Shown here piece after piece: positions 35,388-39,393 of a stretch of 44,653 nucleotides of DNA (positions are counted from its first letter, which is position 1; the number at the start of each line of letters is the position of its first letter). Below the pieces are notes generated by a model. The model worked only from the letters and a program-made list of their open reading frames with translations, searched no databases and was not told where the DNA came from. A program made the position numbers and the translations under genes. The stretch is from a virus. The stretch spans positions 1 to 44,653 of the IMG/VR virus record IMGVR_UViG_3300035666_000045; one strand, written 5' to 3'.

Positions 35388-35402
35388 CCGCTGCGGAGTC
35401 TG
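35388..35402 (+). repeat. Linker copy 1 (CCGCTGCGGAGTCTG)
   Basis: This copy precedes the first plus-strand gene with no gene upstream, so it is not merely a stop-associated tail. A small stem (GACGG with CCGTC, 35420-35436) lies between it and the ATG at 35461. Confidence 0.8.
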
Positions 35403-37118: not shown

Positions 37119-37133
37119 CCGCTGCGGAGTCTG
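37119..37133 (+). repeat. Linker copy 6
   Basis: The 15-mer begins four bases after the TAA stop. It is followed 12 bases later by the strongest terminator-like structure of the region. Confidence 0.85.
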
Positions 37134-37145
37134 GTTTTCGGCATG

Positions 37146-37178
37146 GGCCGTCCCGTCGTGGGGCGGCCTTTTCTTTTT
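37146..37178 (+). terminator. Rho-independent-like terminator after linker copy 6
   Basis: GGCCGTCCC pairs with GGGGCGGCC (one G-U) around a five-base loop, followed by TTTTCTTTTT. This is the best terminator of the window. The amidoligase start codon lies only 22 bases beyond the U-tract, and those bases are taken by its ribosome binding site. Confidence 0.75.
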
Positions 37179-37200: not shown

Positions 37201-38430
37201 ATGAGCGACGAGAACGAAGTTCTGTACGACAACTACGGGTTCAACGATGCCACCGGCCTGCACCGCGATACAGGAACGGCGGTCGATCCCAACGGGTTCT
37301 ACCGGGATGGGATTCACCGGACCACCGAGACGGAGTTCAGCCCACTCACCCGACTCACACGCGACGGCTATGCCTACGACTCGAGGGGGTACAACTACGC
37401 GGGATACAACGATGAGGGGTACGACCGAGAGGGCTACGACTCGGACGGGTACGACCGCGACGGCCTGGACAGCGCCACCAATTCGCGGTGCGACAACGGC
37501 GAGTGCGACCGCAATTGCTCGTGCCGCGACTCCTTCGATGACCAACTGGACGGGTACGGCACGCGAGCCCCGCGTGTGCTGGGCTGGGCACCACACCCAG
37601 ACTTGGAGCCGACGTACCTGTACGCCGGCCACGAGATCGAGATGTACTCGGACGACGAGGACTTCTCTGACGTGGAGCACACGCTCCACCAGGTAAACAC
37701 CCTGTACGCGGGCCTCAATCCACTGACTCGCAACCGCCGGTGTGCCATCGCCAAGCACGACGGCTCACTGGAGGACGGCGGTTTTGAGTTGGTGACTGTG
37801 CCGCTCACGACCGAGCAGGTCTACGGCATCTTCGGCAAGATCAAGACGCTGGGGGACGGCCGCTGCTCTGCGTGGGACAGGGGCGACGACGTTGGGCACC
37901 ACATCCACCTGTCCAAGCGGGCCATCGGGCCGCTCACGCTGGGCAAGTTGCTGGTGTTCATGAACGCGGAGAGAAACCGTTCGTTCCTTGAAGCCATCGC
38001 CTGCCGCCCGGCCGGGTTCAATCACTTCTGCACCAAGAAAGTGACTGACCAGGGCAACTCCGACAGGTACGAGGTTCTCAACGTGACCGACAGCACGGTC
38101 GAGTTCCGCCTGTTCAAGAGCAACCTGTACGGGCGGGCGATCCTCAAGAACCACGAGTTCGCCGTCGCTGCCGTGCGGTTCTGCGAGCAGGTGTCGCACG
38201 GGTTCGGGGAGGTGGACAGCCACATTGACCCGCTGCACTTCGTCAACTTCCGCACGTTCGTAGCGGCCAACCGCCACACCTACCGCTACCTGCACGAGTT
38301 CTTGCTGTCTCACACCTCGCTTCGCGTCGGCTACCGCAACAACGCGGGCCTGCCCGACAGCGTGGCTAACCCGAAGGAGAAGTCGCCCGTGTTCCGGATG
38401 ATTCGCCGCACCGACATCGAAGGTGCTTGA
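37201..38430 (+). CDS. Amidoligase-like protein with Tyr/Asp/Gly repeats (409 aa)
   Basis: Residues 140-300 carry the marks of the Amidoligase_2 family (ATP-dependent COOH-NH2 ligases of the glutamine-synthetase-like fold): YAGHEIEMY (141-149), AKHDGSLEDGGFELVTVP (184-201), GHHIHLS (232-238), a helix with NAERNRS, and STVEFRLFKSNLYGR near 300. These proteins join an amine to a carboxylate, usually on a peptide. Residues 55-90 hold a tandem run of GY(D/N) units (GYDREGYDSDGYDRDG), and residues 97-108 a four-Cys cluster. GAGGAG lies just upstream of the ATG. A class II glutamine amidotransferase follows, which could supply ammonia. The substrate is unknown. Confidence 0.78.
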   Translation: MSDENEVLYDNYGFNDATGLHRDTGTAVDPNGFYRDGIHRTTETEFSPLTRLTRDGYAYDSRGYNYAGYNDEGYDREGYDSDGYDRDGLDSATNSRCDNGECDRNCSCRDSFDDQLDGYGTRAPRVLGWAPHPDLEPTYLYAGHEIEMYSDDEDFSDVEHTLHQVNTLYAGLNPLTRNRRCAIAKHDGSLEDGGFELVTVPLTTEQVYGIFGKIKTLGDGRCSAWDRGDDVGHHIHLSKRAIGPLTLGKLLVFMNAERNRSFLEAIACRPAGFNHFCTKKVTDQGNSDRYEVLNVTDSTVEFRLFKSNLYGRAILKNHEFAVAAVRFCEQVSHGFGEVDSHIDPLHFVNFRTFVAANRHTYRYLHEFLLSHTSLRVGYRNNAGLPDSVANPKEKSPVFRMIRRTDIEGA

Positions 38431-38482
38431 TCGGTTCCGTTTCTTGACCCCCTCACTTTCACACTCACAAGGAGATTCCTGC

Positions 38483-39334
38483 ATGTGCCTCGCCATCTAC
38501 AAGCCCGCCACCACCCAGCCCGACTGGTCCGCCTACCGCAACGGCTTCGCCGTGAACGACGATTCGTGGGGATTCGCCGCAGTCGTGGACGGCACGCTCG
38601 TCACCCGCTGCGGTGTCGGCACCTTTGAGGAGTTCCGCGAAGCCCTTGAACCGTACGCCGACAAGCAGGCCATCATCCACTTCCGATGGGCCACGCACGG
38701 CAAGAAGGACACGGGCAACTGCCACCCCTTCATGGTCAGCGACTCGCTGGCCGTGATCCACAACGGAATTATCTCGATCAAGTGCGATCTGGATAAAGAC
38801 CGCAGTGACACCTGGCACTTCAACGAGTTGGTCCTCAAGCCCATGCACGCCAGGGACGAGGGCTTCTACCAGCGCAGCGAGGTGGTGTACACGCAGCAAC
38901 TCGCCCACTCCGGCAGCAAGTTCGTGTTCCTGCGGGCGGACGGCGACTACTGCATCTGGAACGAGGACGCTGGCGACTGGGCCCGTGACGGGCACTGGTA
39001 CAGCAACGACTCGCACGAGGGATCGTACTACCGCAGCGTCGGCTTCGGCTTGACGGCCCGCACCAAGACGACCACCACCACCACAGAGCGGTCGTGGATC
39101 GAGGAGTCGGACGGCAAGTGGAAGTACGTGGAGGACGACAACTCCGTGTCCACGCTCCGCGATGCGTACTCCCGCATGGCAGACGAGCAGGAGGAGGAGG
39201 ACCGGGAGGATTCGTTCTACACCAGCATGCGTGTGGATGACTTGATCGCCTACGGTTTCAGCCGCAAGTGCTTGGCTGAAGTGCAAGACATGCTCGGCCA
39301 CGACGGCATCGAGTTGCTGCACGACGCCATCTGA
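38483..39334 (+). CDS. Class II glutamine amidotransferase-like protein (283 aa)
   Basis: The ATG at 38483 places Cys at position 2 (MCLAIYKP), as required for the N-terminal nucleophile. AAGGAG lies nine bases upstream; a longer frame would hide the Cys, so the short start is right. The motifs RWATHG (68-73), GNCHPF (78-83) and VIHNGII (91-97) match GATase II, which cleaves glutamine to release ammonia for an acceptor enzyme. The C-terminal half is acidic, with a Thr-rich linker (TKTTTTTTE) and a closing helical segment. It lies in one unit with the amidoligase gene, between linker copies 6 and 7, which supports a functional pair. Confidence 0.85.
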   Translation: MCLAIYKPATTQPDWSAYRNGFAVNDDSWGFAAVVDGTLVTRCGVGTFEEFREALEPYADKQAIIHFRWATHGKKDTGNCHPFMVSDSLAVIHNGIISIKCDLDKDRSDTWHFNELVLKPMHARDEGFYQRSEVVYTQQLAHSGSKFVFLRADGDYCIWNEDAGDWARDGHWYSNDSHEGSYYRSVGFGLTARTKTTTTTTERSWIEESDGKWKYVEDDNSVSTLRDAYSRMADEQEEEDREDSFYTSMRVDDLIAYGFSRKCLAEVQDMLGHDGIELLHDAI

Positions 39335-39339
39335 TTTCC

Positions 39340-39393
39340 CCGCTGCGGAGTCTGGTTTCTGCGGGGCCAGTGGCACTGGGTCACCGGCCCCGC
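39340..39393 (+). repeat. Linker copy 7 with hairpin
   Basis: The 15-mer is at 39340-39354, five bases after the stop. GCGGGGCC (39361-39368) pairs with GGCCCCGC (39386-39393), with an internal GTG/CAC pairing. TTCCCTTTCTT follows, 12 bases before the next ATG. Confidence 0.85.

Follow-up and report, generated by a model that had tools for sequence, protein, structure and literature searches.

What do two adjacent viral genes, one encoding an amidoligase-type ligase and the other a class II glutamine amidotransferase (GATase), make together, and do they form a unit of their own? This question is raised by a viral sequence record 44,653 bases long, the whole of which was analysed and is called the window below. 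Over roughly the first 35 kb, most of the long frames lie on the minus strand, and several of these match structural proteins (major head protein, portal, baseplate/connector). Small genes, a DUF6744 protein, an AAA ATPase and a protein whose profile matches are clamp-like and RusA-like are encoded on the plus strand from 35 kb onwards. The ligase and GATase genes sit in this plus-strand region, 52 bp apart. A copy of a repeated linker stands on either side of the pair, with no further gene inside these two copies and no linker between the ligase and GATase genes. An earlier note on this DNA had claimed two open reading frames at this place, standing alone as a two-gene unit; both frames are present there, and they are indeed alone between the two linker copies. 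The features of the locus are as follows:

37119..37139, plus strand: linker element CCGCTGCGGAGTCTGGTTTTC upstream of the pair, with its core GCTGCGGAGTCTG at 37121
37145..37169, plus strand: GC-rich terminator-like hairpin of 11 pairs upstream of the ligase gene, tail TTTCTTTTTC
37201..38430, plus strand: ligase gene (ATG 37201, stop 38430), amidoligase-type (GS/GCS2-fold) carboxylate-amine ligase, 409 aa
37228..37470, plus strand: YDxxG-type repeat region of the ligase, about residues 10-90, 7 units
37489..37524, plus strand: four-cysteine motif C-x4-C-x3-C-x-C of the ligase (C97, C102, C106, C108)
37633..38118, plus strand: ligase catalytic core, E145/E147 (GHEIE), K185-x-DGSL and E196, G232-H234-H236, R269, E301/R303 (VEFRLF)
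38469..38474, plus strand: Shine-Dalgarno-like AAGGAG of the GATase gene
38483..39334, plus strand: GATase gene, class II glutamine amidotransferase with N-terminal Cys2 nucleophile, 283 aa
39342..39354, plus strand: linker core GCTGCGGAGTCTG downstream of the pair
39361..39393, plus strand: GC-rich hairpin of the downstream linker, without T-run

The two proteins are probably the subunits of a split glutamine-dependent enzyme that would form an amide. This model is based on their predicted folds, their intact active sites, a near-obligate linkage in fixed order and purifying selection on both genes. Once its Met1 is removed, the GATase, with Cys2 at its N-terminus, would hydrolyse glutamine to release ammonia, while the GS-fold ligase, with ATP-Mg, would turn a carboxylate into its activated acyl phosphate and join it with the GATase-derived ammonia to yield the amide.

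Predicted folds and active sites of the two proteins

Taken as single sequences, both proteins match known profiles weakly, and their family assignments therefore rest on alignments, predicted structures and relatives; with 30 relatives aligned, the case becomes strong. Against Pfam PF12224 (Amidoligase_2), the ligase scores 11.7 bits, below the cut-off of 22, and it is weakly matched by the phrog_2443 amidoligase (E=0.0026). The GATase reaches 21.9 bits against Pfam GATase_6, below the cut-off of 27, such a cut-off being a profile threshold and no biochemical feature, and it is matched by NCBIfam glmS profiles at 1e-13. Within the aligned ligase family, 12 of the 31 members match PF12224 at E<0.1, and a more distant phage ligase relative clears the cut-off with 45.2 bits.

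In the alignment of 31 ligase sequences, E145, E147, D187, E196, H234, R269, E301 and R303 are invariant, and the remainder of the catalytic core is invariant or nearly so. The motifs E-x-E, K-x-DGSL..E, H-x-H and E-x-R are presumably active-site residues of the GS/GCS2 type. The predicted model of the protein (pLDDT 85) has its best matches among solved structures in YbdK/GCS2 (Z 11.4 over 221 residues, 4.0 A), followed by glutamine synthetases (Z about 10), the fold region spanning residues about 135-408; among viral models, the best matches are those named 'Amidoligase enzyme' (E 1e-18). Fold and acidic, histidine and arginine motifs are thus shared with the YbdK/GCS2 and glutamine synthetase superfamily, from which the window ligase differs by its low identity (about 10-14%), by an added N-terminal module and by having a GATase partner. 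We conclude that 37201-38430 encodes a GS/GCS2-fold carboxylate-amine ligase of the phage amidoligase kind, which would be active as a ligase.

The N-terminal module is built of the YDxxG repeat and the four-cysteine motif. Seven YDxxG units were reached in none of 10000 residue shuffles, and the repeat region is modelled confidently (pLDDT about 90) yet without regular secondary structure; sequence searches for a known repeat family gave no match worth noting. The four cysteines may form a zinc-binding knuckle, and marine relatives carry at the same place a longer CxxC-rich, zinc-finger-like region. Within the ligase, this module would be the likeliest place for the binding of a substrate or of a partner.

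Regarding the GATase, the ORF caller picks GTG 38423 as its start. The true start is however ATG 38483, in front of which stands the Shine-Dalgarno-like AAGGAG, and the homologous Met-Cys is the start in nearly all full-length relatives; with this start, the cysteine is residue 2. Across 31 aligned sequences, C2, R68, T71, G73, N94, G95 and D109 are invariant, as is the entire block SDTWHFNE (residues 108-115), which is a signature of the family. The catalytic residues align with the same residues of bona fide GlmS and with the GATase of PhiCh1: C2 falls on the C2 of GlmS, and R68, T71, D109 and the oxyanion N94-G95 fall on its R-W-A-T, TDTE and HNG motifs. The predicted model (pLDDT 81) adopts an Ntn-hydrolase fold whose best structural match is the glutaminase domain of GlmS (1xff, E 9e-8, prob 1.00), ahead of EgtC (E 2e-5) and then PurF. 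The likeness to the GlmS domain therefore concerns the fold and a complete glutaminase site; the window protein differs in that it is without sugar isomerase domain, has SDTWHFNE in place of TDTE and ends in a helical C-terminal tail. Hence, 38483-39334 encodes a class II GATase with a complete GlmS-type glutaminase site, and it likely acts as a glutaminase.

These results bear out the assignments of the earlier note, which had named an amidoligase-type ligase and a class II GATase. The GATase II marks on which it relied (Cys2, R68-W-A-T-H-G, GNCHPF and HNGII) are present and conserved and do not occur by chance. It had also proposed that a loss of catalytic residues would speak against the pair, and by alignment these residues are intact in both proteins.

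Linkage of the two genes and boundaries of the pair

The same note regarded an independent distribution of the two genes as the observation that would break the unit, and their distribution was hence surveyed in both directions. Viral contigs searched with the ligase alignment gave 80 loci, of which 76 had enough downstream DNA to be testable; a GATase lies downstream on the same strand in all 76, within 100 bp in 70 of them. Conversely, 56 loci were retrieved with the GATase as seed; upstream DNA sufficed in 49 of them, and a ligase lies upstream in every one of the 49. At 35% identity, the ligases of the linked loci form 17 clusters; the flanking genes vary between lineages. The unit thus holds together within the family. 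The order ligase-GATase is also kept in four named records, namely Methylophilales MEP402 (gp06-gp07), Mycobacterium Tesla (108-109), Acinetobacter AciJM_313 (CDS_27-28) and a Manatee Spring podovirus. As no fused ligase-GATase form appeared in the reciprocal survey, we infer a complex of the two proteins from their linkage only.

Linkage to a GATase holds within the family of the window ligase and is not universal for phage amidoligases, since two clearly more distant phage ligases, one from a Clostridioides phage and the other from the partial record of a Microcoleus phage, have no detectable GATase in their record. In cellular genomes, only 3 confirmed matches were obtained among 84,980, all in metagenome-assembled genomes and one (L139) without ligase, and a cellular origin was rejected on this ground. 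When the neighbours of the pair were clustered, no third gene common across lineages emerged, whether a substrate peptide, an ATP-grasp or a GGCT gene. The small genes upstream of the pair were considered as a possible substrate peptide and rejected, since they are unconserved even among closely related loci (window versus locus L003: about 30% identity at 36.0-36.7 kb).

Pairwise distances of ligase and GATase are correlated (r = 0.924; reached in 0 of 2000 permutations), in part because of common phage descent. Purifying selection acts on both genes, with dN/dS well below 1 (0.29-0.50 for the ligase and 0.04-0.40 for the GATase). Closely related phages have at times exchanged the GATase without the ligase, as happened recently between L003 (4725-6849) and L005 (4042-6340): their GATases are nearly identical (dN 0.005, dS 0.10), whereas the ligases show a dS of 0.53 and the genes downstream of the GATase likewise differ strongly.

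The boundaries of the pair are marked by the linker. The element CCGCTGCGGAGTCTGGTTTTC occurs in 7 copies at 3 mismatches or fewer, with none in 100 shuffles. In the clade of the window, 14 of 15 members have the core GCTGCGGAGTCTG 69-79 bp ahead of the ligase ATG, 9 of 15 have it 9-16 bp past the GATase stop, and none of the 15 has it between the two genes. In some close relatives, nucleotide identity is about 60-95% across the pair and drops to about 30% outside its boundaries. Together with the bracketing by linkers, this drop indicates that the pair behaves as a two-gene cassette.

Across the window, the core lies on the plus strand at 35390, 35597, 35854, 36380 (1 mismatch), 36731, 37121, 39342, 40161 and 42178. 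Its layout is recurrent: a stop codon is closely followed by the core, behind which usually come a variable GC-rich hairpin and the ribosome site of the next gene. This gene-boundary linker is conserved in related contigs and separates most genes of the plus-strand region in the clade of the window. It may act as a promoter, a terminator, a site of RNA processing or a recombination joint. In a search of viral contigs for exact 14-base linker matches, which bore on a possible clade specificity of the linker, most of the matches listed were single, and the contigs with several matches among those listed were the ones already included in this analysis.

Such a linker accompanies most genes of the plus-strand region, and the hairpins are hence no peculiarity of the pair. 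The earlier note had placed the two genes between a strong terminator-like hairpin and a second linker hairpin. The upstream one proved real, with a z of -3.58 and a T-rich tail; the downstream one has no T-run and was not called a terminator by the scan. No sigma-70-like promoter was found beside the pair either, and a single terminator-bounded transcript is hence half supported.

The shared linker also bears on the most trivial explanation, in which the two genes are unrelated and adjacent by chance. Indeed, the same linker separates most genes here and neighbouring genes in the plus-strand region are often exchanged, as would be expected of casual neighbours. However, the linker never comes between ligase and GATase, and chance is ruled out by the reciprocal survey, in which linkage was complete over highly divergent phages whose flanks differ; it has practically no probability left.

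Known relatives and candidate substrates

Pairs of this sort have been reported from other phages, and that of the window joins them as a sequence-distant member with unusually clean linkage. OM43 phages MEP401 and MEP402 and over 30 related marine genomes carry an amidoligase-GATase pair (PF12224 plus PF13522; PMC10580990), adjacent and in the same order as in the window. Both of its proteins are homologous to those of the window, at about 25% (ligase) and 39% (GATase) identity, and the N-terminus of the OM43 ligase is longer. In the Mycobacterium phage Marvin group, genes 108 and 109 (Tesla numbering) have the order and strand of the window pair and are matched by profiles at 3e-35 (ligase) and 5e-30 (GATase), with 28% and 32% identity, respectively. 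Tesla gene 108 (L141 3558-4919) is annotated as a glutamine amidotransferase domain protein; it is actually the ligase, and the GATase is gene 109.

An Amidoligase_2-type ligase and a class II GATase are also what the window has in common with the 'peptidoglycan modification cassette' of the phiEco32/LUZ24/PSA-HP1 type, proposed by Iyer et al. 2009 according to papers that cite it (PMC5498523, PMC3890496). As described in the same papers, the phiEco32/LUZ24-type cassettes also hold ATP-grasp, COOH-NH2 ligase and GGCT-like genes (PMC5498523, PMC3890496). In the window record, possibly a fragment, neither a GGCT (AIG2-like) gene nor a RimK-type ATP-grasp gene, the only ATP-grasp type covered by the scan, gave a match, and both were matched in control genomes; the scan for COOH-NH2 ligase (PF14395) gave 0 matches in the window record and 0 in the control genomes alike. 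The statement of the earlier note that such pairs had been proposed from comparative genomics is hence confirmed by the OM43 phages (PMC10580990) and by what the papers citing Iyer et al. 2009 relay of phiEco32. New in detail are the clade-specific N-terminal YDxxG repeat with its four-cysteine motif and the bracketing of the pair by linkers.

As for what the pair amidates, the cell wall may be just one option, the sequence favouring neither peptide, wall nor protein. As a sub-case of the amide-forming model, with which its probability overlaps, the pair could amidate or cap carboxylates of the host peptidoglycan stem peptides during infection and so exclude other phages or tune lysis; we hold this reading as tentative. 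It fits the presence of peptidoglycan in all named hosts of phages that carry a close relative of the pair (Methylophilales, Mycobacterium, Acinetobacter). No wall-linked gene accompanies the pair in unrelated phages, however, and the undetected GGCT and RimK-type ATP-grasp genes in the window argue in the same direction. Peptidoglycan modification and superinfection exclusion have been proposed for related gene sets (PMC10580990, PMC11318856, PMC5498523), and no report of an experiment identifying the substrate of an amidoligase-GATase pair was found in the literature. A further lead against a wall-only role comes from the archaeal Natrialba virus PhiCh1 (L148 2839-4486), in which a class II GATase of the same type lies directly behind an ORF with GMEIE, HVH and IELR motifs, reminiscent of GCS2. 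The host of PhiCh1 is without peptidoglycan. This ORF, PhiCh1_200, was rejected as a proven ligase homologue and is kept as a motif-level lead, because profile comparison gave nothing and the HMM E was 1.9; its kinship to the ligase is unconfirmed. Alternatively, the pair could be a virus-restricted, glutamine-dependent amidating enzyme of two subunits whose macromolecular target is not the cell wall but a carboxylate of a host or phage protein or of a modified nucleobase, the choice of target being made by the YDxxG/Cys module. We consider this rather doubtful; if true, proteins or nucleic acids would be amidated during infection by a new route.

The main chemical rival departs from amide formation and follows from EgtC being the second structural match of the GATase: as in EgtA/EgtC of ergothioneine synthesis, the ligase would join a gamma-glutamyl group or an amino acid to a substrate, and the Ntn protein would later hydrolyse the gamma-glutamyl amide. 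The GCS2/YbdK fold of the ligase agrees with such chemistry, for which conservation of the gamma-glutamyl-binding residues is expected too. Nevertheless, the GATase is better matched by GlmS glutaminase domains and glmS profiles than by EgtC, and ammonia-producing enzymes are its best neighbours in both sequence and fold, which makes gamma-glutamyl ligation and hydrolysis unlikely. Auxiliary nitrogen metabolism, in which the pair would help the infected cell to assimilate nitrogen or make amino acids, has been speculated for Phage-ZRK32, a Planctomycetes phage with amidoligase and GATase genes (PMC10945688). Glutamine spent on an amide is however no assimilation of nitrogen, and the strict two-gene linkage and the added N-terminal module would rather point to a dedicated product, so that this role appears very improbable.

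Amidoligase-GATase pairs are widespread in phages, and the two-gene form of the window is the smallest version, no other gene travelling along. What is amidated by the putative split enzyme is hence a question that can be addressed by expressing two proteins only. Other arrangements were also seen among the viral loci, with two amidoligase-GATase pairs in a row in L102 (3149-8706) and a ligase flanked by GATase on both sides in L088 and L128.
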